A stretch of 64,000 nucleotides of DNA from Saccharicrinis aurantiacus. Its GTDB lineage: Bacteria > Bacteroidota > Bacteroidia > Bacteroidales > Marinilabiliaceae. The notes under the pieces were generated by a model that saw only the letters and a program-made list of their open reading frames with translations, ran no database searches and was not told the origin of the DNA. Numbering within the stretch: the first letter of the stretch is position 1; every line of letters begins with the position of its first letter. This document shows positions 5,096-22,766 of this stretch, one piece after another. The translations under genes and the position numbers were made by a program. The stretch is from the NCBI RefSeq assembly GCF_001660705.2, contig NZ_LYBV02000023.1:62001-126000 (forward strand), written 5' to 3'.

Positions 5096-5199
5096 TTTTT
5101 TCGTTTGTCTTTCTTTTAGAATAGTATTTGCATGTAGCCTTAAGATGGCTTCCTTTGTCGCGATGATGTAAAACCTTAAGCAGGCAGTAAAATAAATAA

Positions 5200-5238
5200 G
5201 CGCCTTGTTATTCCGAGGCACAAAGGAATCTCAAGGCA
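5200..5238. repeat. Dispersed 39-bp repeat copy
   Basis: The sequence matches the complement of 55245-55283 at 34 of 39 positions. The shared core is attccgaggcac followed by aaggaatct. It lies between the sulfatase and the GH28 gene. Confidence 0.7.
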
Positions 5239-5266
5239 AACTTCAAATCCGTTACTCATTGAGACT

Positions 5267-6637
5267 TTAGTTTTCTTCAATAATTATTTCTTCTCTCCCA
5301 TCTTCACCCTCCAAGGAAAAAGTAATATTTTCTTTTACGATATTTTTGGCATGGCGTGCATATAAACCATAGGCAGGTAATACGCCAAAAAAGCTAAACT
5401 CGGGATAACGCTTTTCGTCTTCGGCAATTACAGCTTTTACTTGCTCTGCAGTTCCTCCACCTGGTAGAGTGATGGCGATATTGCTAAGGGTAATATTTTC
5501 GACAGCGTGGTTTGGTGTTCCGGTAATAAAAATACCTGCCGGAGGTGTCACTCTTGATTCTTCAATGCTACGAGTTACTGCTGTTACGTTACTAATCTGA
5601 ATATTTTTAATAGAGCCTACTTTTTGCTTTGGAGCATCGCGATAAGTGCGCAAACGCTCGCCCAAGCGAATAAATATTGGCATATCCACATTATTCATTT
5701 TAATGTTATCGATAAGAATGTTATCGATATTTGCGCCATCAACACTAAGTATTTTTATACCACCGCCGCGCGTATCGTTTATGGTACAGTTTTTAACCAC
5801 AATATTTTTGAAATCGCCCATTGATTCGGTACCAAATTTAATAGTACCCCAATCACTTTTTAGTGTACAATTGCTCACAACAACATTACTGGTTGCCACC
5901 GGCGATGTGGTTTTAAAACAGATGGCATCGTCGCCACTATCGATATCGCAGTTTTGGATTATGGCATCGCTACTGGAGTCTAAATCAATACCGTCGTTAT
6001 TTTTGTGTGCATGGCTGTATATTTTAACACCATCCACTAATATATTCTTACTTTGGAAGAAGTGTAAAGTCCATGCGGCAGGCTGGCGTAAGCTGATATC
6101 TTTAACTTGAATATTGCTTGATTTTACCAAACGTACCAAAAATGGTCGGTTACTGGCATAAACGCCATACTCACTTTGGGCTACCCCCAAACGTTTCATT
6201 GTTTTTTTAATATTCTTTGATAAAAACAATTCTCCTCGCCCATCAATAATTCCCTGACCTGTGATGGCAATATTATTGGCACCCTCGGCACCCACTAGGC
6301 ACTTACCACGCACTTGCCCCGTAGCATCGGTAAATGGGTCAATACTTATGTAATCCATAGGATTATCGCTACCAATAAGCTGCGCGCCTTCTTCAACATG
6401 AAGCGTAACATTATCTTTTAGCAAAACGGTACCTGTTATAAAATGGCCGCTAGGTACTATAACTGTTCCTCCGCCATTATTATAGCAATCGTCAATTGCC
6501 TGCTGAATGGCTTTTGTGTTAATAGTAGTTTGATCGCTTATGGCACCGTAAGTGGTGATAACGTAGTGCTTATCCGATTGGCACGATAGCAAAGTTACTG
6601 CCAACAGCATTGATACAATATAAAGTAGTTTTTTCAT
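5267..6637 (-). CDS. GH28-like polygalacturonase family lipoprotein
   Basis: The 456-residue product has a lipoprotein signal (LLSC, Cys19) and then a right-handed beta-helix of the GH28 type starting YGAISDQTTINTKAIQQAI. The family aspartates are present: NNDGIDLD (D215), and D236/D237 in SGDDAICFK. The usual GHG histidine and RIK segment are replaced by DWGTIKFG (about 262-269) and GGIKIL (about 292-297), so the substrate may differ from plain homogalacturonan. GH28 enzymes hydrolyse alpha-linked galacturonosides, including rhamnogalacturonan. A second GH28-like gene lies at 10012-11400. Confidence 0.82.
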   Translation of the reverse strand: MKKLLYIVSMLLAVTLLSCQSDKHYVITTYGAISDQTTINTKAIQQAIDDCYNNGGGTVIVPSGHFITGTVLLKDNVTLHVEEGAQLIGSDNPMDYISIDPFTDATGQVRGKCLVGAEGANNIAITGQGIIDGRGELFLSKNIKKTMKRLGVAQSEYGVYASNRPFLVRLVKSSNIQVKDISLRQPAAWTLHFFQSKNILVDGVKIYSHAHKNNDGIDLDSSSDAIIQNCDIDSGDDAICFKTTSPVATSNVVVSNCTLKSDWGTIKFGTESMGDFKNIVVKNCTINDTRGGGIKILSVDGANIDNILIDNIKMNNVDMPIFIRLGERLRTYRDAPKQKVGSIKNIQISNVTAVTRSIEESRVTPPAGIFITGTPNHAVENITLSNIAITLPGGGTAEQVKAVIAEDEKRYPEFSFFGVLPAYGLYARHAKNIVKENITFSLEGEDGREEIIIEEN

Positions 6638-6750
6638 GTGTTTTTATATTAGAATTTAAATTATACCTGATATAGTAAGGGTAGAACTCGCACCAATATG
6701 AACCCTTAGAATTTATTGATACCTAGAGGTGCGAATCTGTAAATGATTTT

Positions 6751-7668
6751 TTATTCTATAGTAGCGAACCAATCTTCGGCAAGCTTTGTCCAGTGTGGTG
6801 CTCCTTCTCTACTTAGGCCCAAGCTATAACCATGTCCACCTGTTGGAAATAAATGCATGGTTGCACTTACCTTATGTTTTACTAATGCCTGATACATTCT
6901 GATGGAGTTTTCTACTGGCACTGCTTTATCATCAGCAGAGTGCACCATAAAAGTAGGCGGTGTATCATTGGTAACTTGCAATTCGTTAGAGAACTCCTCT
7001 ACCAATTCTGGAGATGGGTTTTTACCTAGTAAATTCTTCTTTGAACCCTTATGTGTTACACCATCTTGCATGCTGATAACGGGATAGATGAGCATCATAA
7101 AATCAGGGCGCGCACTTAATGCGTCAATAGAATCCTTTCTATCATAAATAGGCATCTCGTAATGGGTACCAATGCTTGAAGCCAAGTGACCTCCTGCAGA
7201 AAACCCTATTACGCCAACCTTATTAACATTTACATTATAATCTGGTGCATTGCTTCGTATCCATCGCATGGCGCGTTGGGCATCTTGCAATGGTGCTTGA
7301 TGCCCAGTTACTACAGATGCTGATTGTGGTAATCTATACTTTAAAACAAAAGCTGCAATACCATTACTGTTTAACCATTTGGCAATATCTGTTCCTTCCC
7401 AATCGTATGCTAAACCACCATAACCACCTCCTGGCATTATTAAAACGGCACGTCCGTTGGCATTTTGCTTTGAAGGAATAAAGGCTTCTATCGTCGGGGT
7501 TTGAACCTTTTGGATGAAAAGTATATCTCGCTCTGGATAAAACTCCTTTTCCTTCGATTTCTGATAATTTGGCAATTCTTTTATATCCCAAAGCGGAATT
7601 TGTTCTTGTGCCATACTGCTCATTGTTAGTAATACTACGATAGCTGCAATAAGTGTTCTTTGTTTCAT
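6751..7668 (-). CDS. Secreted alpha/beta-hydrolase, probable carbohydrate esterase
   Basis: After a signal peptide ending near MSSMAQ (residue 21), this 305-residue protein shows the esterase/lipase fold: oxyanion segment PGGGYGGLAYDWEG, nucleophile elbow GFSAGGH (Ser157), acidic residue in HSADD (246-247) and catalytic His279 in TGGHGY. Related proteins (acetylxylan esterase/BD-FAE-like) remove acetyl or feruloyl groups from plant and algal polysaccharides. Only 5 bases separate it from the GH31 stop-to-start junction at 7674, so the two are almost certainly co-transcribed. Confidence 0.83.
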   Translation of the reverse strand: MKQRTLIAAIVVLLTMSSMAQEQIPLWDIKELPNYQKSKEKEFYPERDILFIQKVQTPTIEAFIPSKQNANGRAVLIMPGGGYGGLAYDWEGTDIAKWLNSNGIAAFVLKYRLPQSASVVTGHQAPLQDAQRAMRWIRSNAPDYNVNVNKVGVIGFSAGGHLASSIGTHYEMPIYDRKDSIDALSARPDFMMLIYPVISMQDGVTHKGSKKNLLGKNPSPELVEEFSNELQVTNDTPPTFMVHSADDKAVPVENSIRMYQALVKHKVSATMHLFPTGGHGYSLGLSREGAPHWTKLAEDWFATIE

Positions 7669-7673
7669 GTGTA

Positions 7674-9854
7674 CTATAGGTTTACTGTAATGGTATCTGT
7701 ATATCCACCAGTGGCTTCAATTACTTCACCTTTATAATATAATTTTACGTTTATTTTACTTTGCGTATTAAAATAGTTGCCCTCAAATTTAGTGCTAATA
7801 TTTACCTTATTACCATTAGCAATTGCTTTATAGTGCACCATTGTGTATTCTTTATTCTTATAAGCAAAACCTTCACCAGCATCGGTATATAGTTTTCCCT
7901 TTGCTTTTCCTGATTCATCTAAATTAACCAATAGGGTAATTTCATCTGTTGAATAATCAACTGTACTTTGTGCCAGGTTGCAAAGCGGAACAATAGCCCC
8001 AGGGCGCAATAAAACATCCGCTTGGTATTTGTCATCTGCACTATTTTCGCCATCGATGGAAACTATCTTCCAATCGCCTTTGGGCAGATGGGGATTTTTT
8101 GACCACTTTGGAACAATAATTAAATCGGACCCAATCATAAAAGCTTCTTGTTCCTTTCTTAAGGAAAGATCTTTATCATCGGCCATAAAAACAGGACGCA
8201 TAACAGGGGTGCCAATGGCTGATGCCTCTTGAAACAAAGTATAATAATACGGTAATAAACGGTATCTACGATTGATAGAAGTACGACATGATTCTTCCAC
8301 CTTTTTACCAAAAGCCCAAGGCTCGTGCGGCTTACTACCATTGATAGAATGTGCACGTGAAAAAGGAAAGAAAGCCCCAATGGCCATCCAATGTGCAAAC
8401 AGATTGGGAGTTGCATTACCCTCGAAACCACCAATATCAGGACCATTAAAAGGCTGACCCGATAAACTTAGGTTGATGCTCATGGGTATAGACATTTTTA
8501 AATGTGCCCATGTAGAGGCATTATCGCCAGTCCATGTGGCTGCATAACGCTGACCACCGATATAATTAGATCGGGTTAAAACAAAAGGTCTTTTCTCTGG
8601 GTTGGCCTTAAGAATTCCTTCGCGGGAAGCCTTCACCATCAAATAACCATATACATTATGATATCGCAAATGCGAACTGGCAGGCAACAACTCACCCCCT
8701 CTATGTTTATTATCCGAAGGCATAGTCATGTCGGTAAGTCCATTCATCACCGCCTCATTCTCTTCTGTATTCTCAAAAACTGCAGGCTCGTTCATATCGT
8801 TCCAAACACCATCAATACCGGTGGCCATAAATGGCTTATATAAGTTAGCCCACCACTGGTTGACTTCTTCGTTGGTAAAATCGGGAAAAACGCAATCGCC
8901 TGGCCAAACACGGCCAACAAAATCCTCATCGTCGGCAGTTTGAACCCACACTTTATTTTTAGTACCTGAATCGTACACATGGTAACCCTTTTCTTTTTTC
9001 ACGCCAGGGTCAATCATCCATATCGATTTAAAATCTTTCTGATGCAGATAAGCATTGGTCTTTTCGGGGTTAGGAAAGTCTTTTTCTGAGAACGTAAACA
9101 CACGGTTGCCATCCATATAATGAATATCCATCCAAATTACATCGCAAGGGATATTCTTTATTCTGAAGGTATCCGCAACTTCAGCCACTCTAGTGTCGGG
9201 AAAATAAGACCATCTACATTGTTGGTAACCCAAACTCCAAAGAGGAGGCATTTCCATTTTTCCTGTTAGCTGAGCCAATTCCTTAAGTACTTCAGTAGTA
9301 TTTTCTTTTTCAATGATAATTACTCGGAATGGTTTAGAGTCGGCTGTAAAGGTGATTCCATCTTTCAAATATAAATTTTGTCGCCAGGTATTATCGGCCA
9401 AAACACCAAAAGCAGAGCCATCTTTTCGAACTCCTAATACCCAAGGATGCGATTGGTAGAGGCGCTTTCCATCATCGAGCTTATAGGTAAAGTTATCCGT
9501 ATTCCATAGGCTTATTTCGGTATTGTTTCTGAGTAAATTTCCGGTTACTTCTCCTGTTCCATACAAGCTAGCATCTCCTGTATTAATATGGGCAATGCTT
9601 TTCCCGTCTAACACCGAGAATTCTACCTTTAATTTCCAACCGTACCCTAATTGATCTACTTTTTGAGGTTCATCAATAAGCGCTAAAGAAGGCAGGTGAT
9701 CTTCTCCACTGAAACCTTCGGGATAAAAGATGGCGATATTGTCTCCAATTAAATACGACTGATTTTTAGTTTCCATACACGATGTAAAAAGCAAGGTTAA
9801 GGGTAAGACTAGCATGGCTTGCCTTACCGCAGTTTTTAATGTTGATGTGTTCAT
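7674..9854 (-). CDS. Glycoside hydrolase family 31 lipoprotein
   Basis: The 726-residue enzyme begins with a lipoprotein signal (LLFTSC, Cys26). The GH31 barrel carries DVIWMDIHYMDG, the nucleophile in GVWNDMNEP (Asp353) and the acid/base in TWTGDNAST (Asp444), followed by GPDIGGFEG. The family contains alpha-glucosidases, alpha-xylosidases and sulfoquinovosidases. The IWMDIHYMDG loop is of the alpha-glucosidase type, but xylosidase activity would also suit this locus. It is upstream of and co-transcribed with the esterase. Confidence 0.93.
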   Translation of the reverse strand: MNTSTLKTAVRQAMLVLPLTLLFTSCMETKNQSYLIGDNIAIFYPEGFSGEDHLPSLALIDEPQKVDQLGYGWKLKVEFSVLDGKSIAHINTGDASLYGTGEVTGNLLRNNTEISLWNTDNFTYKLDDGKRLYQSHPWVLGVRKDGSAFGVLADNTWRQNLYLKDGITFTADSKPFRVIIIEKENTTEVLKELAQLTGKMEMPPLWSLGYQQCRWSYFPDTRVAEVADTFRIKNIPCDVIWMDIHYMDGNRVFTFSEKDFPNPEKTNAYLHQKDFKSIWMIDPGVKKEKGYHVYDSGTKNKVWVQTADDEDFVGRVWPGDCVFPDFTNEEVNQWWANLYKPFMATGIDGVWNDMNEPAVFENTEENEAVMNGLTDMTMPSDNKHRGGELLPASSHLRYHNVYGYLMVKASREGILKANPEKRPFVLTRSNYIGGQRYAATWTGDNASTWAHLKMSIPMSINLSLSGQPFNGPDIGGFEGNATPNLFAHWMAIGAFFPFSRAHSINGSKPHEPWAFGKKVEESCRTSINRRYRLLPYYYTLFQEASAIGTPVMRPVFMADDKDLSLRKEQEAFMIGSDLIIVPKWSKNPHLPKGDWKIVSIDGENSADDKYQADVLLRPGAIVPLCNLAQSTVDYSTDEITLLVNLDESGKAKGKLYTDAGEGFAYKNKEYTMVHYKAIANGNKVNISTKFEGNYFNTQSKINVKLYYKGEVIEATGGYTDTITVNL

Positions 9855-10011
9855 TGAATTTCATATTAGTACGTTTCAATGTTCAATCTCTTCTTTTTAT
9901 TGACTTTATGCAAACTATATAAATATAAAATAGCCTTTCTAATTGGATTTAAACAAAATACAGTCCTGTGACATATAAAATATATAGACTGCAAAACCGA
10001 GTACAAAAGCC

Positions 10012-11400
10012 TTATTTTATCTTTTTACCGTTTAAATAACAATTACTAATATTGCTATTACTTACATCATCTAAAACAAATGGTTTCCGGGCATCAGCAT
10101 CAACAACCGTTAACTGAAAATTATCCACTAGCACATTCTCCATATGTCGTAAATAAACCCCTGATGCAGGTAATGTACCTACTAAATGAAACTCGGGCCA
10201 CCAACCCTCTAAGGTTTCTACAGTGTATTCTTTTATGCTTTTCTTACTATCCTCTTTTGTTCCTCCACCCGACACAAAAAACTGAACATCCTTAATGATG
10301 ATATTTTGGATGTTATGTCCGGGCATTCCGGTTAAAAAGAAAGCTGAATTCTTATCCAATTCAGTATTATCAGCAATGATATTCTGAAAGGTAAAATTCT
10401 TCATTTCTTTCATAGAATACATTTCTTCAGGAGCATCAACACAGGCTTTTTGTTGGGCAAAGGTCATGAAAACAGGGCGCGGTACATTTTTCATCACCAA
10501 GTTGGAGAAAACCATATTCTTCATGGTACCCCCTTCGTTCAATTGTATTTTTAGGCCCGAATCTTTTATGTTTTTAAAGGTACAATTGGTCACAGTCACC
10601 GATTCAAAATCACCACGAGATAATAAACCAATGCGCATACCCGCCCATTTACTCTCGAAAATACAGTTGGTAATTACTACATCTTTACAGGGTTTATCTT
10701 GCATAGAAGCTTGTAGGCAAATAGAATCATCGCTGGTATCGAATGATGAATTGGACACACGCACATTAGTGCAGCCATCAAAATCGAGGCCATCGCCATT
10801 TCCATTTACTCTGCTTCTGATTTTTATGCCATCAACTACTATCTCATTACAATAAAGCCATGCTGAAACCCATGCTGCTGGGTTTAATATGGTAATGTCG
10901 CGCATATGAATTTTATCGCAATTTTTAAAGCGCATCAACATCGGACGCCCTCCTTTTTTACGGGTAAAGTTTTTCATATAACCATTCCCATCAATAATAC
11001 CGTAACCTTCGAAGGCAAATGACTTGGCATCTTCGGCATAAATAAAACAACGATCCATATGAGGCTCGTTTTTATACATGTTTTTGTGTGTGTTATTGGG
11101 GTAATCTTTATAATCAGGACTTGCCAATAAAGTTCCGCCATTTTCGATGTGTAGCGTTACAAAATCTTTCATATAAATAGTACCTGAAAGAACTATTTTA
11201 CCAGATGGGATGATTACTTTACCTCCCCCATTTTGGGTAGCGGCGTTGATGGCATTTTGTACTGCTTCGGTATCAAGAGATACGCCATCGGCTTTAGCCC
11301 CAAAATCACGCACATCAAAATCTTTTGCCGCGCTAATTTGCGTGATTAATAACATGGCAAAGGCTATACAAAGTGTTTTAAAGGTGAATCGATTTTTCAT
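10012..11400 (-). CDS. GH28-like polygalacturonase family protein, second copy
   Basis: A signal peptide (to about residue 25, QISAA) is followed by a 430-residue beta-helix opening FDVRDFGAKADGVSLDTEAV, the standard GH28/pectate-lyase-3 entry. Catalytic-type aspartates appear in NGDGLDFDG (D203) and TSDDSICLQ (D224/D225). As in the other copy, the GHG motif is absent (KWAGMRIG at 251-258) and RIK reads GLKIQ. The two proteins are only distantly alike, so they are divergent paralogues rather than a recent duplication. It has its own upstream region, because the GH43 gene before it ends in a terminator. Confidence 0.82.
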   Translation of the reverse strand: MKNRFTFKTLCIAFAMLLITQISAAKDFDVRDFGAKADGVSLDTEAVQNAINAATQNGGGKVIIPSGKIVLSGTIYMKDFVTLHIENGGTLLASPDYKDYPNNTHKNMYKNEPHMDRCFIYAEDAKSFAFEGYGIIDGNGYMKNFTRKKGGRPMLMRFKNCDKIHMRDITILNPAAWVSAWLYCNEIVVDGIKIRSRVNGNGDGLDFDGCTNVRVSNSSFDTSDDSICLQASMQDKPCKDVVITNCIFESKWAGMRIGLLSRGDFESVTVTNCTFKNIKDSGLKIQLNEGGTMKNMVFSNLVMKNVPRPVFMTFAQQKACVDAPEEMYSMKEMKNFTFQNIIADNTELDKNSAFFLTGMPGHNIQNIIIKDVQFFVSGGGTKEDSKKSIKEYTVETLEGWWPEFHLVGTLPASGVYLRHMENVLVDNFQLTVVDADARKPFVLDDVSNSNISNCYLNGKKIK

Positions 11401-11610: not shown

Positions 11611-11646
11611 CAAAAAAAACTCTCACCCTATAAAGGAATGAGAGTT
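11611..11646 (-). terminator. Terminator after the GH43 gene
   Basis: On the minus strand aactctca (11618-11625) pairs with tgagagtt (11639-11646) and is followed by a run of eight T. It separates the GH43 transcript from the GH28 gene beyond. Confidence 0.8.
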
Positions 11647-11678
11647 TCTAAAATAATTTCTGATAATTTTACTGAATA

Positions 11679-13010
11679 TTACTCTGTCATTAATAACCAA
11701 TTCAGATTAACTGCCTTGGTATTACCCCAATCAGATTTAAATACTACCACAAGGTTATGAATACCTGTGATATCTTCTTTTACATCAGCCTCAATGGTTT
11801 CCCAAGTATTCCAGCCACCAGTATAGTTAATTGGGAACTCAGCCACTAATTTACCCTTTGGGTTATTTAGTCGTACCTCAAAGCTTCCCATTCTCTGACC
11901 ACTAGCAACGCGTGCTTTTATTTTTTTAGCACCATCAAATTTCACTCTATCAAAACGCACAAAGCTATTCATACGTGTATCGCAAACCATCCATCCTGTT
12001 GGTTCGTTTCCTCCTACAAATGTTGTGTTGGCACCACTAATATCATTGTACCTATCCACTTGAATGGTATCATTCACTTGTGGCGTTCCGATACCGCGTA
12101 AAGTTGGCTTTACACGTTTGATGCTTCCATCTTTTTTAAACTCCATATAATCGGCACGCATAGAACGCAACTTGCTAAATCCACTAATATCCCACGAGTG
12201 GTAAAACAATATCCATTGTCCTTCATATTCAACTACAGAATGGTGGTTGGTACCATTATAGATATTATCCATAATTTTACCCCCATAAATATAAGGTCCC
12301 ATTGGATTGTCAGAAGTGGCATAGCCAATTGTATAACCCTCATCGGCAAATACGTGTGCAAAAGTTAAGTAGTACGTACCATCTTTTTGAAATGGGAAAG
12401 AACCTTCTTTATATCCTGCAGGTAAACCTTCAATTAAAATTGGTTCAGCAGTAATTTCGCTCATGTTATCAGCCAAAGGAGCTACATATAACTCATGTCC
12501 TCCTCCAAAGAAAAGGTAAGCATCGTTTTTATCGTCCACTAATAAACCTGGATCGATACCCGAAACGCCTTCAATAAAGTTCTTATTCCATTTAAACGGA
12601 CCAAGTGGATTATCAGAAACCCCTACACCAATTCTTCTAAAAGCTTTATCTTTTTTTGGTTTGGCCGGATAATAGTAATAATACTTTCCATCCTTCTCGA
12701 TACAATCAGGTGCCCACATGGCGTAAGTATCTTTCTCGCCCCAAGGCACATCATTCTCTTTTAATATCCAACCATGATCTTTCCAAGTGGCACCATTTTC
12801 GAGCGTAAAAGCATGGTATCCTGGCATACAGAAACGCGGAAATTCTTCTTCGCGCCCAGCAGGGGGATAAGTATCACTTGAAGGATAAACATATAACTTT
12901 CCATCGAATACACGCGCTGTGGGATCAGCTGTAAACATGTGTGTAACTAATGGGTTTTGCGCATACAATGTTCCTGTTATTATGAACAACGCGAATAAGA
13001 TTCTTCTCAT
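11679..13010 (-). CDS. GH43 family glycosidase with C-terminal CBM6-like domain
   Basis: After a signal peptide (residues 1-17, TLYAQ) the five-bladed propeller shows the three GH43 acids: base Asp29 in FTADPTARVF, modulator Asp153 in SGIDPGLL and acid Glu202 in YKEGSFPF. MWAPDCIEKDGKYY and GTNHHSVVEYEGQW are further family landmarks. From about residue 315 a beta-sandwich (FVRFDRVKFDGAKKIKARVAS to the end) looks like CBM6. Family members act on arabinofuranosides, xylosides and galactans. It is the first gene of the minus arm next to the regulator. Confidence 0.9.
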   Translation of the reverse strand: MRRILFALFIITGTLYAQNPLVTHMFTADPTARVFDGKLYVYPSSDTYPPAGREEEFPRFCMPGYHAFTLENGATWKDHGWILKENDVPWGEKDTYAMWAPDCIEKDGKYYYYYPAKPKKDKAFRRIGVGVSDNPLGPFKWNKNFIEGVSGIDPGLLVDDKNDAYLFFGGGHELYVAPLADNMSEITAEPILIEGLPAGYKEGSFPFQKDGTYYLTFAHVFADEGYTIGYATSDNPMGPYIYGGKIMDNIYNGTNHHSVVEYEGQWILFYHSWDISGFSKLRSMRADYMEFKKDGSIKRVKPTLRGIGTPQVNDTIQVDRYNDISGANTTFVGGNEPTGWMVCDTRMNSFVRFDRVKFDGAKKIKARVASGQRMGSFEVRLNNPKGKLVAEFPINYTGGWNTWETIEADVKEDITGIHNLVVVFKSDWGNTKAVNLNWLLMTE

Positions 13011-13111: not shown

Positions 13112-14260
13112 TTACTCAATAGCACTGGTTAAAATGAGTTCTAATTTTGTGTTGGTTCTACTTTTACCTTCGGCTTTAAATACCGCAGTAAAATACGGCG
13201 TGTTATTAGTATTCTTCTTTATAAATGATGTTAAGCTTTCCCTATTGGTGTAGAATTCAATGGTAGAACTTACGCCAATATCGTGGTTAGAAAAAAACAG
13301 CAATTGATTTGTATTACCTGGGCCAGGTATATTGGAAACCACGGCATATTCCTCGGTTAAGCCCGATGAGTTTAGATAAAACGAGGTATCAGCTAATTGT
13401 GGGTGCCCCTTTAAAAACAAAGAATCATTACTGATTCTGAAGTATTTATTGCTCTGATTGAAAAAGTGGATAAAGTGATTGTTATTTTTAGTAGGTCCCA
13501 CATAAATAGCATTCTCCTGCTTAATATCGGCAATAGAGCTTTGTGATATAAACTTTATACTAGGCGAAGTATTAAACTGCTGAAAAACTTGTTCAATACG
13601 CTGAGTAGCAATTACAGCCATACCCGTAGTATAAGTATAGTTTGCAGGCTTTGTATTAGTTTTAACATCTTCATTCTTCTGACTTAGCGCATAATAATCA
13701 CTCAAGTTATTTATTGCATAGTCTCTATTCCAACCATAATTCCCTGTTGCCGTATTTCCCATAATACCAAATATATCTCCAATATATAAGCTTGTGGGCT
13801 TTTCAATATACGACCCCCAAATTGCATCCTTTTTAGGGGGTAAATTCGATACCAGAAATACCACTAGCATTATTAAAATAAGACCATACGGAACAACATT
13901 TTTCAACTTAATTTTAGAATAGAATGATTTAATCGGTGGCCTTTTAGTAAAATGAAGATTGTATTGTCCTTTTTCGATTGAAACAATATGAGCGTCTTCC
14001 TTACCTTCTGCTTGGTAATATTCGTTCAACTTTTTTCTTAGATTATAGATATTCACCCTAACCCTAGGCGAAGACTTATCACTATCGGCATTACTCTTAA
14101 AAAACTCTACATCTATAATACTTTCTTTTAAAACTATTTCATTAATCGATGCATCGCACAAATATTGTAGCAAAGAATTACTGGTAGTTGCCTTAGAAAA
14201 GGTTTTACTATTACGAATGGATGATATTAATAATTGCTTCTTTTCGTTATTGATATTCAT
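13112..14260 (-). CDS. Membrane-anchored winged-helix regulator (CadC/ToxR-like layout)
   Basis: I place the start at the ATG at 14260 (382 residues); an upstream ATG at 14386 would run through the operator palindrome. Residues about 15-104 form a winged helix: SLLQYLCDASINEIVLKES, then VRVNIYNLRKKLNEYY (recognition helix) and IEKGQYNLHF (wing). This matches the DNA-binding domain often joined to TPR or periplasmic domains. One membrane segment (121-140, VVPYGLILIMLVVFLVSNL) is followed by a periplasmic domain of about 240 residues containing YVGPTKNNNHFIHFFNQS and YAVVSNIPGPGNTNQLL. It lacks kinase, receiver and TPR domains, so it looks like a one-component regulator sensing something outside the cytoplasm. 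Its position between the two divergent arms makes it the likely local controller. Confidence 0.72.
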   Translation of the reverse strand: MNINNEKKQLLISSIRNSKTFSKATTSNSLLQYLCDASINEIVLKESIIDVEFFKSNADSDKSSPRVRVNIYNLRKKLNEYYQAEGKEDAHIVSIEKGQYNLHFTKRPPIKSFYSKIKLKNVVPYGLILIMLVVFLVSNLPPKKDAIWGSYIEKPTSLYIGDIFGIMGNTATGNYGWNRDYAINNLSDYYALSQKNEDVKTNTKPANYTYTTGMAVIATQRIEQVFQQFNTSPSIKFISQSSIADIKQENAIYVGPTKNNNHFIHFFNQSNKYFRISNDSLFLKGHPQLADTSFYLNSSGLTEEYAVVSNIPGPGNTNQLLFFSNHDIGVSSTIEFYTNRESLTSFIKKNTNNTPYFTAVFKAEGKSRTNTKLELILTSAIE

Positions 14261-14296
14261 ATATAGATTACGGATAAACAAGTCTTTACGCAAAAC

Positions 14297-14332
14297 TTTA
14301 ACGGTTATAGGTACCGTTAAAATGCTGTTAAA
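14297..14332. promoter_or_regulatory. Candidate operator: 9-bp inverted repeat plus a third half-site
   Basis: tttaacggt (14297-14305) and accgttaaa (14313-14321) are perfect complements with a 7-base spacer. gttaaa recurs 11 bases after the second arm (14316 and 14327), about one helical turn away. The site lies in the 145-base divergent gap between the winged-helix regulator and the PL-like gene, where a regulator of both arms or of itself would bind. Confidence 0.6.
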
Positions 14333-14405
14333 GTTATTAAATAATGTATAAATCTGTTGTTTTGTGTATTCAATGTTTAATATCAATACAACAAATTAAA
14401 GACTT

Positions 14406-15704
14406 ATGAATAAATATTCTCTTGCTACATTTCTACTTAGCATTGGCATGATACTTCAAGCACAAATTAAAGAACTTAGCGATGATGGAACCTGGTGTTG
14501 GTTCTCAGCACCCGGAGCTGTATATCATCACAATGGTCTACCACAAATAGTAACTGGTTGGGTAAAAGCCGATGGCTCAATAGAAGCTGCTGTACTTAAT
14601 TATGAAAGTGATGAAATAAGCACCCAAATAGTAAGCCCTAAATTGGATAAAGACGACCATGCTAATCCCGGATTTGTGGAGTTAGAGAATAAAGAGGTGC
14701 TGATGATGTATACCAAGCATTTTGATGAAGGGGTACGTTCGCACCGTTTAAATGCAAATGCTAAAGAGGCTACTTTTTCAGAGCTTCAAATGATTGATGT
14801 TTTTAACGAAGCCCTATTTAAACGTTACCCTAAAAAGTGTATTACCTATGCAAACCCAATTTCATTAAGTGACGAGAATGGCCGCTTGTTTGTATTTGGT
14901 CGATGGACAGGCTATAAGCCGAATATGCTATGGAGTGATGATAATGGTAAAACTTACAATGATGCACAAGTATACATAACCAATAAACCATTTGACGATG
15001 TAAACCGCCCCTATGTAAAATACTATTCAGATGGAAAATCTAAAATCCATATCATTTTTACTGATGGACACCCAAGAAAGGAACCTACTAATTCTGTTTA
15101 TTATGCCTATTATGAAAAGGGTGCCTTTTGGCGAGTTGATGGATCAAAAATATGCGATCTTGAAAACATACCTTTTGAGCCCAAAGAAGCCTCTGTAATA
15201 TATAAAGCCACTAAAGAATCGGGACGTGCCTGGGTATATGATGTTACCCAAGATAAAAAAGGAAATCCGGTGGTTTTATATGCCAGATATCCAAAAGAAT
15301 CGGAACACTTATACCACTATGCCAAATATGAAAAAGGCAAATGGATAGATCACAAAATATGCAACTCTGGCAAATGGTTTCCACAAACTCCTAATGGCAA
15401 AAAGGAGCGTGAACCGCATTACTCGGCCGGCTTAACCTTTCATCCCTCAAAATCCAACACTATTTATTTATCACGCGATATTAATGGGGTATTTGAAATA
15501 GAAAAGCGAGTAACCAAGGATAAAGGTAATTCGTGGGACATTACGCCCATCACATCAAACTCAAAATACGACAATGTGCGCCCAATTGTACCCAAAAATC
15601 CGGAAAAAAGAGATAAAACGGTAGTTCTATGGATGGAGAACGAAAAATACATTCATTACTCAAATTACAAAACCCGCGTTAAATATCTGGTGGAAAACAA
15701 ATAA
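14406..15704 (+). CDS. BNR_4-type beta-propeller protein, possible PL24/PL25-like polysaccharide lyase
   Basis: The signal peptide (1-19, MILQAQ) precedes about 410 residues of propeller-type repeats (LWSDDNGKTYN and TKDKGNSWDITPI are BNR-like blades). DDHANPGF (His85), YTKHFD (His105), ITYANP (Tyr148) and FGRWTGY (Arg166) reproduce the His-His-Tyr-Arg set I recall for PL24/PL25 ulvan lyases, with the same 20-residue gap between the histidines. Such lyases cut next to uronic acids and leave unsaturated ends, which the adjacent GH105 would remove. Non-catalytic BNR_4 proteins exist, so the activity is inferred. Confidence 0.6.
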   Translation: MNKYSLATFLLSIGMILQAQIKELSDDGTWCWFSAPGAVYHHNGLPQIVTGWVKADGSIEAAVLNYESDEISTQIVSPKLDKDDHANPGFVELENKEVLMMYTKHFDEGVRSHRLNANAKEATFSELQMIDVFNEALFKRYPKKCITYANPISLSDENGRLFVFGRWTGYKPNMLWSDDNGKTYNDAQVYITNKPFDDVNRPYVKYYSDGKSKIHIIFTDGHPRKEPTNSVYYAYYEKGAFWRVDGSKICDLENIPFEPKEASVIYKATKESGRAWVYDVTQDKKGNPVVLYARYPKESEHLYHYAKYEKGKWIDHKICNSGKWFPQTPNGKKEREPHYSAGLTFHPSKSNTIYLSRDINGVFEIEKRVTKDKGNSWDITPITSNSKYDNVRPIVPKNPEKRDKTVVLWMENEKYIHYSNYKTRVKYLVENK

Positions 15705-15747: not shown

Positions 15748-16860
15748 ATGAACTTACTAAAAACAATTGCCCTAATTATTGTACTGAGTTTACCTTCTGT
15801 TGCCCATGCTCAAAAAATCAAAGCCAAGCGCGTTAAAAAGGACATGCAAACGGTTGCCGATTGGCAGATAAGGCATTTTAGAGACACCTTTAGCATGAAG
15901 CGCAACAAGCCCCACCATATTGCCGATTGGACCAATGCAGCTTTATATGTGGGCATGGTAAAGTGGGCAGAAATGGCCGATAGCGACAAATACTATCAAT
16001 GGCTAAAAGGCGTTGGCGAAGAGCAAAAATGGAAACTACATTGGCGTAAATACCATGCCGATGACCATGCGGTAGCTCAAATGTATATTGAGCTTTTCAG
16101 AAAGTATGGCGATTCAACAATGATAAAACCAAGTATTAAAGGGATGGACTACATTATTAATAACCCAAGTACACAACCCATTACATTAGACAACTACAAA
16201 CATTTAGAACGATGGACATGGTGCGATGCACTATTTATGGCTCCTCCGGTATTGGCAAAATTGGCTAATATAACAGGCGATAAAAAATATACTGACTTCA
16301 TGCTAAAAGAGTTTAAGGCTACTACAGCGCATTTATACGATGCAGACGAAGATTTATATTATCGAGATAACTCTTACATCGGCAAATTAGATAAAGGTCA
16401 TAAAACCTTTTGGTCGCGCGGTAATGGATGGGTTTTTGGAGGCTTAACCATTATAATGGAAGAATATCCGAAAGACTCTAAGGAGTATGCTTACTTTTTA
16501 GATATCTACAAAAAAATGGCTAAAAAGTTAATAGAAATACAAACTCCAAAAGGGCATTGGGCTATGAGCTTACTGGCTGCAGATTTATATCCAACTCCTG
16601 AAGCAAGCGGAACAGCGTTCTTCACCTTTGGTCTGGCTTGGGGAATAAACAATGGCATCCTCAATAGAGAAACTTACGAGCCGGCTGTAAAAAAAGGATG
16701 GAATGCCCTCACTAGCTACATTACAAAAGATGGCATGCTCGGATATGTACAACCCATTGGCGCAGCTCCTGGTAAAGCATGGCCCGATAAAACAGAAGTT
16801 TATGGTACCGGTGCCTTTTTAGCTGCGGGTAGCGAAGTTTACAAAATGTATAGCAAATAG
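15748..16860 (+). CDS. GH105 unsaturated glucuronyl/galacturonyl hydrolase
   Basis: The 370-residue protein has a signal peptide (to about residue 22, HAQ) and an (alpha/alpha)6 barrel with the landmarks of the YteR/GH105 family: YHADDHAVAQ (103-110), TWCDALFMAPP with the likely catalytic Asp160, FWSRGNGWVFGGL and KTEVYGTGAFL. The family hydrates and cleaves the 4,5-unsaturated uronic acid left by lyases on rhamnose-containing oligosaccharides. It starts 43 bases after the lyase-like gene and is likely co-transcribed. The pairing argues for an ulvan- or rhamnogalacturonan-like substrate. Confidence 0.93.
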   Translation: MNLLKTIALIIVLSLPSVAHAQKIKAKRVKKDMQTVADWQIRHFRDTFSMKRNKPHHIADWTNAALYVGMVKWAEMADSDKYYQWLKGVGEEQKWKLHWRKYHADDHAVAQMYIELFRKYGDSTMIKPSIKGMDYIINNPSTQPITLDNYKHLERWTWCDALFMAPPVLAKLANITGDKKYTDFMLKEFKATTAHLYDADEDLYYRDNSYIGKLDKGHKTFWSRGNGWVFGGLTIIMEEYPKDSKEYAYFLDIYKKMAKKLIEIQTPKGHWAMSLLAADLYPTPEASGTAFFTFGLAWGINNGILNRETYEPAVKKGWNALTSYITKDGMLGYVQPIGAAPGKAWPDKTEVYGTGAFLAAGSEVYKMYSK

Positions 16861-17258: not shown

Positions 17259-18626
17259 ATGAAACGGATTCAATTATTCTTATTAATATCCTTAGTTACC
17301 GTATTTTCCCAGGGGCAAAAATTACCCTCATTTGCTGATGGCGACAAAGTCTGTTTTATTGGCAATAGCATAACTCAAGATGGCAGGTACCATATGTTAT
17401 TCCAGTCCTATTTTGCTACCCGATTTCCTGGTGTAGAAGTCGAATTCTACAATTGCGGAATTGCTGGTGATGTAGCAACAGGGATGATCAATAGATTTGA
17501 ATCGGATATTTGGATACACAAACCCACCAAAGCCTTTTTAATGACAGGCATGAACGATGTAATGCAATATTTATATGAACCATCTGCCATAGTCGATTCC
17601 TTGAATTTAGCTCGCAGAGAGCAGGCATTGCAAGCCTACATTAATAATACCGAAACACTCGCCTCGATGCTTAAAAACAAAGGTGTAGAAACAATATTCA
17701 TCACACCTTCCATTTACGATCAAACTTCAAAAATATCGCAAAGTAATAATTTGGGGGTTAACGATGCCCTAAAACAATATTCAGCTCATATTAAACAATT
17801 GGCAAAGAAACACAATGCAACAGTGGTTGATTTCAATAGCATGATGGAAACCATTAATTTAAATGGCCAACAAAACGATAGTTTATTTACTATTGTTGGG
17901 CACGATAGGGTTCACCCTGGTGATGTTGGACATTTTATTATGGCCTATGAGTTGATTAAAACAATATTGCCCCAACAAGCTCTTTCAAAAATTGTAATTG
18001 ATGGTAAAAAAGGAAGAATACAAGCAAGTAATAATGCAACAGTTGAATGCAAAAAAACGCGAAAAGAGATTAGTTTAAACGTAAAAAACGTGTCACTACC
18101 CTTCCCTATTTTTAAACAATATTCACAAGCTTTAAACTGGATACCTTTTCAGGATGAACTAAACCAAGAACTATTAACCATATCCAACCTTAAGCAAGGA
18201 AATTACACACTAGATATCGATGGTATTTATATTGGGACTTTCTCATCTGATGAACTAAAAAAAGGAATTAACCTTGCTACAAATGAGAATACACCACAAT
18301 ACAAGCAAGCCACTAAGGTTTTAAAATTATGCACAAAATATCATAAAACAATGGGTAAACTCAGAACTCTGGCTTTTATCGATTATCGTATGTTAAACGA
18401 ATACACGGGCCCAGATACGGCAAAGGGAAAACAATCTTATCTGCAAGCTAAACTCGATGCCGATATTGGTAAAAGTTGGCATGCTTGGAATACAAAAAAT
18501 GTAAATAGATATTTTGAATTATTACCCCAAAAAGAAGCCTTAACAAATGAAGTTAACGAACTAAGAAACCAAATATACAAAAGTAATATACCGCTCGAAC
18601 ACAATTATGTAATAAAGGCACAATAA
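17259..18626 (+). CDS. SGNH/GDSL hydrolase, probable carbohydrate esterase
   Basis: The signal peptide (1-20, SQGQ) is followed by the four SGNH blocks: GNSITQ (Ser37), GIAGDVATG, TGMNDV and the Asp/His pair in GHDRVHPGDVGH. These enzymes deacylate polysaccharides or small esters. Beyond about residue 250 comes an extra region with a beta-rich part (ISLNVKNVSLPFPIF) and a long helical tail (about 350-455) not needed for catalysis. The 455 residues exceed a bare SGNH domain of about 220. It sits between GH105 and the sulfatase genes on the same strand, which suggests deacetylation of the same polymer. Confidence 0.85.
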   Translation: MKRIQLFLLISLVTVFSQGQKLPSFADGDKVCFIGNSITQDGRYHMLFQSYFATRFPGVEVEFYNCGIAGDVATGMINRFESDIWIHKPTKAFLMTGMNDVMQYLYEPSAIVDSLNLARREQALQAYINNTETLASMLKNKGVETIFITPSIYDQTSKISQSNNLGVNDALKQYSAHIKQLAKKHNATVVDFNSMMETINLNGQQNDSLFTIVGHDRVHPGDVGHFIMAYELIKTILPQQALSKIVIDGKKGRIQASNNATVECKKTRKEISLNVKNVSLPFPIFKQYSQALNWIPFQDELNQELLTISNLKQGNYTLDIDGIYIGTFSSDELKKGINLATNENTPQYKQATKVLKLCTKYHKTMGKLRTLAFIDYRMLNEYTGPDTAKGKQSYLQAKLDADIGKSWHAWNTKNVNRYFELLPQKEALTNEVNELRNQIYKSNIPLEHNYVIKAQ

Positions 18627-18737
18627 GCCCAACATAAGGTACAGACTAGTGAATTAGCATCACTTTGTCTAGTTACTACGATATTCACCCCCTGTTAATG
18701 CACGTAAAAATGTAGCATCTGTGCGCACACTTTTTGA

Positions 18738-18745
18738 TACATTTG
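18738..18745 (+). promoter_or_regulatory. Possible Bacteroidota -7 element before the sulfatase pair
   Basis: TACATTTG fits the TAnnTTTG consensus and lies about 90 bases before the ATG at 18838. A clear -33 TTG at the right spacing was not found, so this is tentative. Confidence 0.35.
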
Positions 18746-18837
18746 ATACAAGAAATAAAAGTACTTTATATGAAAATAATCACAGCAAAAAAAGCAAACA
18801 GCTAAGTTGTGAACTAATAAAACTTAATTATAAGAAC

Positions 18838-20241
18838 ATGAATAAAATTATTTTATTATTCGGTGTTTTCTTGCTATCAATTACCTTGAATGCACAAAAA
18901 GACAAACAACCCAACGTATTAATTATTCTATCCGACGACCAAGGTTGGGGCGATGTTGGCTTTAATGGCTGCACCGATATTCCAACACCTAACTTAGATC
19001 AGCTTGCAGCTGATGGAGTAATATTCTCGCAAGGATATGCTGCCCACCCATATTGTAGCCCAAGTAGGGCGGGTTTGCTTTCTGGTAGAAACCAACAACG
19101 ATTTGGTCACGAAAACAATTTACCATATACCGATGCAGATGCGGATGATGGTTTTCCTCTAACACAATTGATGATGTCGGAGTTGTTAAGCGATTACGAT
19201 TTTCAAACTTGCGCTATTGGTAAATGGCATCTTGGTGACTCAATTAGCCTATGGCCCGACAAACGTGGTTTCGACGACTGGTATGGTTTCTGGGGTGGCG
19301 GAATGAACTATTGGGGAAAACCCAAACACAACGACCCCTACCACGGTGTACTACGCAACGGAGTGCCTGTTCCTCTAGATGAGATTACTTACCTGACTGA
19401 CGATTTCACTAACGAAGCCGTAAACTACATAGATGGGTATGTGAAAAAGGACAAACCATTTTTTATGTACCTAGCGTATAATGCGCCGCACACACCTATT
19501 CAGGTTACCAACGAATATACCAAAGCCGTAAGCCATATTGAAGATGGGGAACGAGCTGCATACGGTGCCATGGTTTATGCAATGGATCAAGGTATTGGTA
19601 AAGTCATTCAGAAGTTAAAAGACGAAGGAGAATACGAAAATACTCTAATATTCTTTTACAGTGATAATGGTGGAACACGCTATAGAGCGAGTAACGCTCC
19701 CTATAGAGGATATAAAGGGATGCTCTTTGAAGGTGGTATTAGAGTGCCATTTATTATGGCCTACCCTGGACACCTAAAAGGAGGAAAGACTTACCACAAA
19801 ATGGTTTCTGCTTTGGATATTTACCCAACTATTTTAGCCGCTACAGGATTAAAACACCCCGAGCCTGAAACACTAGCTGGAGTAGATATTATGCCTTTTG
19901 TTAAAGGAAAGAAAAAAGGAGAACCACATACCGATTTATACTGGCGATACTCTGATGGTGCAGGTTATGCCATGCGTTTAGGAAAGTATAAAATGGTAAT
20001 GTCTGGGTTTAAAAAAGATTTCTTTTTATTTGATATGGAACAAGATCCATACGAGCACACAAACATAGCTTCAGAAATGCCTGAAAAATTAGCAGAAATG
20101 AAGCAACTCTATGCCAAATGGGATAAGGGTAACATAAAAGCCTTGTGGCAAGATCCTCACGCTGCTAATTTATCTAAAGAAGAAGGTGGTAGACAAAAAG
20201 CTCTTGATAGAGCAACAAGTGGAGAAAAGTCAAACAAATAA
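18838..20241 (+). CDS. Secreted sulfatase (S1 family, Cys-type)
   Basis: I start at the ATG at 18838, where a clean signal peptide begins (MNKIILLFGVFLL to LNAQ, residue 20). The longer frame from the GTG at 18721 adds 39 unlikely residues. The 467-residue product has metal residues in SDDQGWGDVGFN, formylglycine site CSPSR (73-77), GKWHLGD and YSDNGGTRYRASNAPYRG. This is the arylsulfatase-A-like type acting on sulfated glycans as exo- or endo-sulfatase. It is 12 bases from the next sulfatase, so the two form an operon. Confidence 0.94.
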   Translation: MNKIILLFGVFLLSITLNAQKDKQPNVLIILSDDQGWGDVGFNGCTDIPTPNLDQLAADGVIFSQGYAAHPYCSPSRAGLLSGRNQQRFGHENNLPYTDADADDGFPLTQLMMSELLSDYDFQTCAIGKWHLGDSISLWPDKRGFDDWYGFWGGGMNYWGKPKHNDPYHGVLRNGVPVPLDEITYLTDDFTNEAVNYIDGYVKKDKPFFMYLAYNAPHTPIQVTNEYTKAVSHIEDGERAAYGAMVYAMDQGIGKVIQKLKDEGEYENTLIFFYSDNGGTRYRASNAPYRGYKGMLFEGGIRVPFIMAYPGHLKGGKTYHKMVSALDIYPTILAATGLKHPEPETLAGVDIMPFVKGKKKGEPHTDLYWRYSDGAGYAMRLGKYKMVMSGFKKDFFLFDMEQDPYEHTNIASEMPEKLAEMKQLYAKWDKGNIKALWQDPHAANLSKEEGGRQKALDRATSGEKSNK

Positions 20242-20253
20242 AAATATAGAAAC

Positions 20254-21921
20254 ATGTTAAGAAATATATTCACCATATGCATACTAACCTTAATGCTTGC
20301 AGTGCAAGCTCAAAAGGATGAACGCCCAAATGTAATATTCATACTTACCGACGATCAACAAGTGGGTTTATTGGGCGTTGAAGGAAACGAATTAATTCAA
20401 ACACCCAACCTTGATAAACTGGCCAACGAAGGCGTACGTTTTACCAATGGCCATGTATCAACAGCCATTTGTACACCTAGCCGTATTTGTATGCTCTTAA
20501 GCCAATACGAACGTAAGCATGGTGTAAACTTTAATTCAGGTACATCTGTAGCACCAGAAGCTTGGGCACAATCGTACCCAGTGGTAATGCGTAACAATGG
20601 TTATTATACGGGTTATGTGGGTAAAAATCATTCCCCTATTGGCAAAGGTGGTTACGCAAGCGGATTAATGGAGAAATCATTTGATTATTGGTATGCGGGT
20701 CATGGTCACTTGAGTTTTTATCCTAAAAAGCGTCACGAAATTTTTGAGGATGCTTACCACAATACTCAGGTAGAAATTATGCAAGAAGGTGTGAACGATT
20801 TTATGAGTAACGAGCACCGCTTAGGTGGCGCTTTACACTTTATTGATGAGCGCCCAAAAGACAAACCTTTCTTATTAAATATCTGCTTTAACCTACCGCA
20901 TGGCGCCAGCACAGGAACCATGAAGTTACTAAAAGGAGATTCTGTTATTTATCGCGATTTATATCGTGATATAGAAATACCAATGCCTGAAAATTATATT
21001 GCTAAAGCTGATATCAAAGAACCTAAATTGCCAGCTTCTATACATAGAGCATCCGACCGACAAGCGGGATACGACTATGTAGATACTCCTAAGAAAAACA
21101 AAGAGCGCATTATTCGTCAAATGCAGGCCATGACAGGTATCGATGGCTTAGTTGGTAACCTTCGTCAAGTGCTAAAAGAAAAAGGTTTAGATAAAAACAC
21201 CATCATTGTATTTACTTCTGATCATGGTTTATTTATGGGCGAGCAAGGCATGGGTGGTAAAGCCCTTTGTTACGAGGCTTGCACCAATGTTCCTATGATT
21301 ATATATAATCCTTTAGATAAAAAGAAAAGCAGAAAACGTGTTAGTGATGAATTGATATTAACCATCGATTTGGCACCTACCATATTAAGCTATGCGGGTA
21401 TCGAAGCTCCAAAAGAATTTCAAGGTAAAGATGTTTCAGGAATAGTTTCTGGCACAAAAGATAAAGTACGCGACTATTTATTTACCGAAAACATGTGGTC
21501 TACACAATTCGGTAACCCACGTTGCGAATCAATTCAAAACAAAGAGTGGAAATACATCCGATATTATAAAAACGAGAACTTATCAGCAGCCACTAAAATT
21601 GCAGCTGCAAAACAGTTAGGTATTCCCGTTAATAAAATGTTGTATTCAGTGCACGATCCGGATATTGCGCTTTACCGCAGCTTTGTTGAAGGGCCATTGA
21701 ATGGTGAAAAAGCCGTATACGAGGAGTTGTATCACTTATCGGAAGATCCTAAGGAAGTGCATAATTTAGCAAGTAAAAAAGAACATGCTGAAATATTGGA
21801 AACACTCAGATCCGAGTGGAAAATTGCCATTAAAGAAGCGCGTGGTGAAGGGAAACCCAAAGTATTACGCTATACAGCAGATAGCATGATGGAACAATTT
21901 GGAACCGTAAAAAATCACTAA
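20254..21921 (+). CDS. Secreted sulfatase (S1 family, Cys-type)
   Basis: This 555-residue protein has a signal peptide (to AVQAQ, residue 20), TDDQQ metal site, CTPSR at 73-77 and late motifs TSDHGLFMGEQGMGGKAL. The inserts around ICFNLPHGAST and the YEELYHLSEDPKEVHNLA tail mark a different subgroup from its neighbour, so it probably removes sulfate from another position. A strong terminator follows 26 bases after the stop, closing the two-gene operon. Confidence 0.94.
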   Translation: MLRNIFTICILTLMLAVQAQKDERPNVIFILTDDQQVGLLGVEGNELIQTPNLDKLANEGVRFTNGHVSTAICTPSRICMLLSQYERKHGVNFNSGTSVAPEAWAQSYPVVMRNNGYYTGYVGKNHSPIGKGGYASGLMEKSFDYWYAGHGHLSFYPKKRHEIFEDAYHNTQVEIMQEGVNDFMSNEHRLGGALHFIDERPKDKPFLLNICFNLPHGASTGTMKLLKGDSVIYRDLYRDIEIPMPENYIAKADIKEPKLPASIHRASDRQAGYDYVDTPKKNKERIIRQMQAMTGIDGLVGNLRQVLKEKGLDKNTIIVFTSDHGLFMGEQGMGGKALCYEACTNVPMIIYNPLDKKKSRKRVSDELILTIDLAPTILSYAGIEAPKEFQGKDVSGIVSGTKDKVRDYLFTENMWSTQFGNPRCESIQNKEWKYIRYYKNENLSAATKIAAAKQLGIPVNKMLYSVHDPDIALYRSFVEGPLNGEKAVYEELYHLSEDPKEVHNLASKKEHAEILETLRSEWKIAIKEARGEGKPKVLRYTADSMMEQFGTVKNH

Positions 21922-22082: not shown

Positions 22083-22766
22083 ATGAAACAAATTATTTTC
22101 CTAGCCATAGCAATGGCTTTTGTGCAACATGTAATCGCCCAAAACAAAGTAAGCGGCAGAGTAACAGCCTTCAATAAATATACCTTAGAAGGAGTTAAAG
22201 TTGAAGCCAAAAAGAGTGGAAATGCGGTGTATACCGATAAAAATGGGAACTACGATATTGAATGTAAAAAAAAGGATGCCCTAAAAATTAGTGCTGATGG
22301 GTTTATGCAGGCACGGATAAAATTAGATGGATCCGAGTCGTACTTCAACACTAACCTTATCATGCTAAAAGGAAGTTCTGCACAATATAAAGTAGTTAAC
22401 AAAGGGTATATGACTCAAGATGAATTGGATTATGCTTTAGAAAATCTGACATCCGAAAATAACGATTTCTCAAGATTCCAGGACATCTGTGACCTTTTAC
22501 AATCCAAGTTTCCATTGGTTAAGTGCATTGAAGACAATGGTATTAACCGTATTTATTTAGGCTCTAATCCTCAATCGCTTCAATCTGGCTCTTGGGCCCT
22601 ATTGGTAGTTGACGGGATTACAACTGATGAGATTAGCGGATTATCACCTATGCAAGTGGCCGACATTAGAGTACTTTCCAAAGAGGGTGCTTCAGCCTAT
22701 GGCGTTCGGGGCTCAAATGGTGTGGTAGAAATTGATTTAAAAGCATCTGCAGGATCAGGATATTAA
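22083..22766 (+). CDS. Barrel-less SusC-like protein: carboxypeptidase-like domain plus TonB plug
   Basis: The 227 residues start with a signal peptide (to VIAQ, residue 20). Residues 21-95 are a carboxypeptidase-regulatory-like domain (VSGRVTAFNKYTLEGVKVE, YTDKNGNYDIE) as at the N-terminus of SusC transporters. Residues about 125-220 resemble a TonB-receptor plug: ALLVVDGITTDEISGL, then IRVLSKEGASAYGVRGSNG, then VVEIDLK, which is the usual end of the plug. A SusC protein would continue with a barrel of about 700 residues, but here a stop follows and the next gene, 21 bases on, is a sulfatase. It is not a simple frameshift, since no barrel coding follows in any frame. Role unknown; binding or gating with a SusC encoded elsewhere is possible. 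Confidence 0.75.
   Translation: MKQIIFLAIAMAFVQHVIAQNKVSGRVTAFNKYTLEGVKVEAKKSGNAVYTDKNGNYDIECKKKDALKISADGFMQARIKLDGSESYFNTNLIMLKGSSAQYKVVNKGYMTQDELDYALENLTSENNDFSRFQDICDLLQSKFPLVKCIEDNGINRIYLGSNPQSLQSGSWALLVVDGITTDEISGLSPMQVADIRVLSKEGASAYGVRGSNGVVEIDLKASAGSGY

Follow-up and report, generated by a model that had tools for sequence, protein, structure and literature searches.

The window (the whole 64-kb stretch of DNA analysed) carries a gene whose product is probably a one-component, membrane-anchored transcription activator of the right arm of a polysaccharide locus, controlled by sugar through its periplasmic domain. The existence of a family of such proteins, its synteny with glycan genes, its operator-like repeats and, in the nearer relatives, the spacing of these repeats to a promoter box are settled at the level of sequence comparison. 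The gene and the parts of its product are as follows:

13112..14260, minus strand: membrane-tethered winged-helix regulator of 382 aa, from ATG 14260 to the stop codon at 13112-13114 (included)
13943..14248, minus strand: predicted winged-helix DNA-binding domain, residues 5-106 (AlphaFold2 model and a sub-threshold match to Trans_reg_C)
13847..13906, minus strand: single membrane helix, residues 119-138 (AlphaFold2 model and hydropathy)
13121..13825, minus strand: predicted periplasmic alpha/beta domain, residues 146-380, which matches no known family

The longest reading of this open reading frame starts at TTG 14386. We dropped that start in favor of ATG 14260 because the homologues agree with the latter and because the operator region, which would otherwise fall within coding sequence, then stays outside it. 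The AlphaFold2 model (69 sequences, mean pLDDT 92.1, pTM 0.68) divides the protein into the winged helix, membrane helix and alpha/beta domain listed above; the first-pass annotation had proposed a winged helix at residues 15-104, a membrane helix at 121-140 and a periplasmic domain, and reading frame and model together bear out a winged helix, a membrane helix and a C-terminal domain with shifted limits. By hydropathy, 57 of the 69 family members, the window protein included, have a single membrane segment, and lysine and arginine are in excess on its N-terminal side (means of 4.6 before vs. 2.3 after it), a charge bias that would suit the predicted topology with the DNA-binding side in the cytoplasm and the C-terminal domain in the periplasm.

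The winged helix came through profile tests only in part. The window protein reaches 15.8 bits against Trans_reg_C (Pfam), below the cut-off of 26.2, but both the model and the relatives speak for a winged helix, 43 of the 69 members matching this family at E ≤ 1 (best 3.7e-4). Among 25 of 38 Pfam families listed, no other was matched by more than two of the 69 members. The proposed one-component make-up, lacking kinase, receiver, TPR and ECF parts, held up as well: Pfam and NCBIfam revealed no kinase, receiver, TPR or sigma component in the protein. Searches of NCBIfam and of PDB sequences, with the single protein and with a profile, yielded no match, and PHROGs yielded a single nonsignificant one (E 0.34). 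Two further sub-threshold candidates were set aside, namely DUF4441 (matched by 1 of the 69 members) and YodL (absent among the 25 of 38 families listed for the 69 members).

The C-terminal domain is modelled with confidence on its own (pLDDT 92.4, pTM 0.90), and the suspicion that it might be an undescribed sensor is in line with our searches, in which it had no described relative in Pfam, NCBIfam, PDB or Foldseek. Neither the full regulator model (against PDB and viral structures) nor the domain alone returned anything at E ≤ 0.001 in Foldseek. The top 21 Foldseek matches of the domain were all BcsB (best E 2.7e-3) or GH67/GH115, with TM-scores of ~0.3, so that the resemblance to the N-terminal alpha/beta regions of these proteins is weak yet consistent. 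A profile comparison with hhalign gave 0.4% for GH67N (PF03648) and 0.2% for GH20b (PF02838), against 0.1-0.4% for ten unrelated controls and 97.5% for the positive control, GH67N vs. GH20b; because this test failed, we claim no kinship to BcsB or GH67/GH115. Invariant positions in the domain include W148, G329, and R368; these and other invariant residues are functional candidates and no proof of a ligand.

We infer that the domain binds a sugar ligand. It may instead read a partner protein or the state of the membrane, as in ToxR/ToxS or CadC/LysP, a reading that is compatible with the main one and that we consider rather unlikely. Such behavior has precedents in the class (associated proteins are listed in the accessible portion of PMC10269533), and it would suit a domain that matches no known sugar-binding domain (Pfam over the 69 members, PDB profile, Foldseek and hhalign); against it, the neighbor clusters contain no small partner gene recurring beside the regulator, and the neighbors that do recur are enzymes, SusC and SusD.

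The genes of the two arms are arranged around the regulator as follows:

14406..15704, plus strand: BNR_4 protein (Pfam), encoded at the head of the divergent right arm; predicted target
15748..16860, plus strand: GH88 family protein, right arm
17259..18626, plus strand: GDSL-type esterase/lipase, right arm
18721..20241, plus strand: sulfatase, right arm
20254..21921, plus strand: sulfatase, right arm
22788..24302, plus strand: sulfatase, right arm
11679..13010, minus strand: GH43 + CBM6 protein, first gene of the left arm, in the regulator's direction and 101 nt after it
11615..11649, minus strand: terminator-like hairpin (14 pairs and a T run) 3′ of the GH43 gene
3548..11400, minus strand: rest of the left arm (GH28, GH31, esterase, GH28, sulfatase), candidate targets at most

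Because the BNR_4 gene (plus strand) is divergent and the left arm (13010 to 3548, minus strand) is co-directional, the regulator stands between two divergent glycan arms, as had been noted on first reading, and heads the left one. Control of both arms by the regulator is only a possibility. The 64 kb contain only one operator, with promoter geometry on the right-arm side only, and no left-arm operator was found with up to three mismatches. A scan for Sigma-70-type promoters gave a count not above that in shuffled sequences. Hairpins of the type that follows the GH43 gene occur at three sites vs. 3.8 expected from shuffles, that at 11615..11649 being the longest. Among the arm genes scanned with Pfam, none matched SusC or SusD. 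Two other reading frames in the window are recorded here for completeness: a 227-residue protein amid the sulfatase genes (22083-22766), with only a sub-threshold CarboxypepD_reg-like match, and a 1492-residue frame (33062-37540) with no Pfam match at 1e-3.

The regulator is real and does lie beside glycan genes, as the first-pass annotation had it, but it is no lone case: it belongs to a paralogous family with six members in its own genome, each beside glycan genes. Homologues were found in 6 of 61 genomes (its own and 60 relatives), which together carry 30 copies without internal stops, 12 of them in one genome. In a sample of the phylum scored at up to four candidates per genome, 15 of 395 genomes had a match, three of these over the N-terminal 130 positions only. 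We also ran one peptide pattern against 84,980 species genomes, which returned 215 stretches encoding a relative; the best 80, taken with their flanks, are all from Bacteroidota judging by record names and include Labilibaculum, Zobellia, Maribacter, Lutibacter, Aquimarina, Echinicola, and Flammeovirga. The locus counts below refer to these best 80 of 215 loci and the window (83 regulator copies, 1.67 Mb). The locus set and the genome sets overlap: the regulators of G214 and G242 are identical to ones in the locus set, and contigs G018:C288, G033:C30, G004:C29, and G018:C116 correspond to loci L067, L043, L107, and L110.

In the 80 loci and the window, open reading frames were predicted mechanically and neighbors grouped by single linkage. 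Pfam was then run on a single representative from each of 20 further clusters, and separately on the window's own clusters. The 5′ neighbor is head-to-head with the regulator in 82 of 83 copies, vs. 214 of 934 other reading frames in the same loci, and it falls in a cluster with a glycan or sugar-catabolism representative in 75 of 83 copies (GH2 21, BNR_4 14, SusC 12, UxaC 9, 3-keto-disaccharide hydrolase 9, GH43 6, and one copy each of beta-helix, GH88, GH29, and sulfatase). The other eight comprise six glycan or sugar genes (three GH3, UxuA, GH88+DUF2264 and a SusC-like fragment), one glyoxalase and one transposase-family gene. At least one annotated glycan cluster is present in the locus of 81 of 83 copies. 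After clustering of the regulators at 60% identity the divergent arrangement is kept in 30 of 31 clusters by majority rule, and at 50% in 14 of 14. The genome-neighborhood check asked for at the outset thus came out in favor of conserved synteny with glycan genes. The sole non-divergent 5′ neighbor of the 83 is a PDDEXK_2 transposase-family gene (L067:3664-4659) that lies between operator and regulator.

In the genome from which the window comes, five of the six paralogues have a sulfatase match no more than 10 kb away, compared with zones of that kind covering no more than 21% of the genome (binomial P = 0.002); the corresponding figures are four of six at 5 kb (P = 0.004) and five of six at 15 kb (P = 0.008). 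The sixth paralogue has no sulfatase near it and adjoins a GH2 gene. This genome (G000) has 94 sulfatase matches, some of them halves of a single gene; G004 has 99, G003 has 56, and G033 has only 9.

The spacer between the regulator and the right arm contains two elements:

14298..14332, minus strand: operator-like sequence of three tandem half-sites, TTTAAC-N5-TTTAACGG-N4-TATAACCGTTAA, core 14301-14318
14357..14364, plus strand: −7-like box TTGTTTTG, one base away from TAnnTTTG and 38 nt past the operator core towards the right arm

An operator had been expected in the fragment 14261-14405, and the triple repeat at 14298-14332 lies in it. Aligning 61 intergenic sites gave a common pattern of half-sites TTTAAC / TTTAACGGT / TATAACGGT, 11 and 12 bp apart. 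The 35-nt triple repeat, searched with up to three mismatches, occurs once in the window with zero mismatches (expected 0.01). Its tight form AACGGTANNTRTAACSGT has 45 sites in the 1.67 Mb, and 43 of these are within 300 nt upstream of a regulator copy and on the regulator's strand; the remaining two are in L052, where the start was mis-set and the site is upstream once this is corrected, and in L067, where the transposase-family gene intervenes. The loose form has 69 matches, of which 62 are upstream on the regulator's strand (62 of 83 copies), two are upstream on the other strand and five are elsewhere (three of these five again belong to L052 and L067); the loose core is absent near the start in 20 of 83 copies. 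Since the pattern was derived from the same loci in which it was counted, the noncircular part of these figures is its near absence elsewhere in them. By majority rule, the operator is kept in 21 of 31 clusters at 60% identity and 9 of 14 at 50%, and the third half-site in 17 of 31 and 5 of 14. Two of the six paralogues in the window's genome have the tight form. The winged helix of the regulator would be expected to bind these tandem repeats.

More distant relatives differ. The group L100-L109 and L013 has TTTAATGGTT in 7 of 11 upstream regions, a tandem variant readable by eye, and another distant group has TTAACCGTTA in 8 of 20 upstream regions. The former is a more distant clade that sits mostly next to 3-keto-disaccharide hydrolase genes. 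A spacer code relating the operator spacer to winged-helix residues was sought by mutual information over 50 rows; the signal was mixed with relatedness, and we make no claim for it.

Genome-wide counts were compared with those of reversed patterns. The loose pattern AACSGT-N6-AACSGT carries no weight alone, because in each of six genomes its reversed control is the more frequent of the two. The tight form has 13 sites in 9 of the 61 genomes (reversed control, 10 sites), and 9 of the 13 (control, 1) fall in the six regulator-bearing genomes: seven adjoin a regulator, one (G018) lies 1.2 kb upstream of a regulator and one (G004, see below) is at a distance from any regulator found. Four sites are in relatives without a regulator, and one of these (G006) is inside a long reading frame. 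The 395 phylum genomes have seven tight sites in six genomes (reversed control 17, counted by hand); four are at regulators, and the other three are in predicted coding frames without a −7-like box at offset 38.

Promoters of this kind follow a −33 / −7 consensus. Of the 62 loci, 29 have a TAnnTTTG-like box (up to one mismatch) exactly 38 nt past the operator core on the enzyme side and 36 have one at 37-39 nt, vs. 1-4 at each of eight other offsets on that side; the offset of 38 nt was picked after a histogram of exact matches in the same loci, in which it accounted for 12 of 15. The regulator side peaks at 9 of 62, at offset 0, which is the operator edge. The box at 37-39 nt is missing from 26 of the 62 operator-bearing loci, and it is a feature of the nearer relatives because it is in the majority in 13 of 31 clusters at 60% identity and 4 of 14 at 50%. 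None of the 36 box-bearing loci has TTG at offsets 13-20, the −33 position, and in 34 of the 36 the third half-site GTTAAA (14327-14332 in the window) is at offset 8, abutting the −33 position. The lack of TTG at −33 and the abutting half-site together suggest that the regulator is an activator taking the place of the −33 contact.

The same half-site could also serve a membrane-tethered repressor that sits on the operator by the right-arm −33 region and is freed when the periplasmic domain binds sugar. This is improbable in our judgment. With TTG at −33 in none of 36, the promoters look weak unaided, and activators of the PhoB/OmpR type use this arrangement of direct repeats in tandem ahead of the promoter. 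A further argument comes from a satellite site in the congener G004 (L111:7106-7123, equal to G004:C28:207105-207122), where a tight site precedes a GH88 gene by 141 nt, counted to the ATG, the −7-like box is again at 38 nt and the third half-site is one base off. The 15 kb fetched around it contain no regulator homologue, and the site is possibly the target of a distant paralogue.

The satellite also bears on whether the operator serves mainly the regulator's own promoter, with the divergent enzyme genes under other control. Every tight site upstream of a copy is on the regulator's strand, and the loose sites are no more than 200 nt from the regulator start as called, which would suit such an autoregulator. 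We nevertheless regard this as highly improbable, since the fixed −7 spacing occurs on the enzyme side only, a site with that spacing and no regulator nearby precedes a GH88 gene, and almost every copy has a glycan or sugar gene as its divergent partner. We infer activation, not repression, with autoregulation in addition.

The activator reading would work as follows. The cytoplasmic winged helix, probably as two or three side-by-side copies, would occupy the repeat array at 14298-14332, in which the half-site closest to the right arm abuts the place of a would-be −33 element. Because no such element is recognizable there, the bound regulator would recruit RNA polymerase to the −7-like box (14357-14364) and so switch on the BNR_4, GH88, esterase, and sulfatase genes of the right arm. 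The periplasmic alpha/beta domain would be in control, most likely by binding a sugar set free from the polysaccharide that the locus serves to degrade.

The architecture of the regulator is not new, because transmembrane transcription regulators (TTRs) are already a recognized class, enriched in Bacteroidota according to the available part of PMC10269533. One or more membrane helices within the polypeptide belong to the features of the class, and here there is one (helix 119-138, one hydropathy segment). With ToxR/CadC-type TTRs the regulator shares a predicted N-terminal winged helix, one membrane helix, a putative C-terminal sensor domain and the lack of a phosphorelay; it differs in that its sensor domain has no significant sequence or fold match, in its position beside glycan loci and in the confinement of the best 80 of 215 loci to Bacteroidota (by record names). 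Its repeats are tandem and direct, whereas CadC sites are described as head-to-head in the accessible text of PMC5430869.

As predicted from its sequence, the regulator lacks the defining features that were compared for three kinds of system known from glycan loci, the descriptions of which are taken from partial source texts. It resembles SusR-like proteins of Bacteroides in being a membrane-anchored regulator of a glycan locus, but the putative helix-turn-helix of SusR is reportedly near the carboxy terminus (both points from the available portion of PMC3878776) and the DNA-binding domain here is N-terminal. Like hybrid two-component systems (HTCS), it would join a periplasmic sensor and DNA binding in a single polypeptide at a glycan locus; kinase, receiver, and AraC-type domain are missing from the window protein and from the families listed for the 69 members. 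ECF sigma / anti-sigma pairs likewise pass a signal across the inner membrane to glycan genes, but neither the protein nor the 20 window proteins scanned, both arms included, had a sigma or anti-sigma match.

The titles and abstract beginnings of the open-licence literature contained no description of this glycan-associated regulator family. It is a tentative possibility, with the balance against it, that the family forms a further class of Bacteroidota glycan regulators: paralogous tethered activators with a new sugar-sensor fold and near-shared operators, their specificity set by position or spacer bases. A near-identical operator is found among the closest paralogues in two of six copies in the window's genome, and in two of five and two to three of 12 in two congeners. 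If this class were real, specificity would come from the adjacent promoter at the membrane or from the six spacer bases, not from distinct half-sites. Promoter choice by membrane-tethered activators becomes directly testable in close paralogues with nearly one operator. The C-terminal domain would be a new sensor to try against polysaccharide breakdown products, and a readable operator with its promoter geometry would allow the glycan genes of each regulator to be predicted and satellite targets to be found genome-wide.

The accessible part of PMC5613140 reports 35 induced regulatory genes in Zobellia, one-component proteins included, and this set could contain family members under another name. 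Two regulator copies may also share one locus: Flavobacterium sp. 7A has two (L055:9974-11125 and L055:14056-15228, 44% and 28% identical to the window protein) ~3 kb apart with a divergent GH3 gene between them, and a second locus of the same strain (L051) has a like arrangement in more fragmented form.
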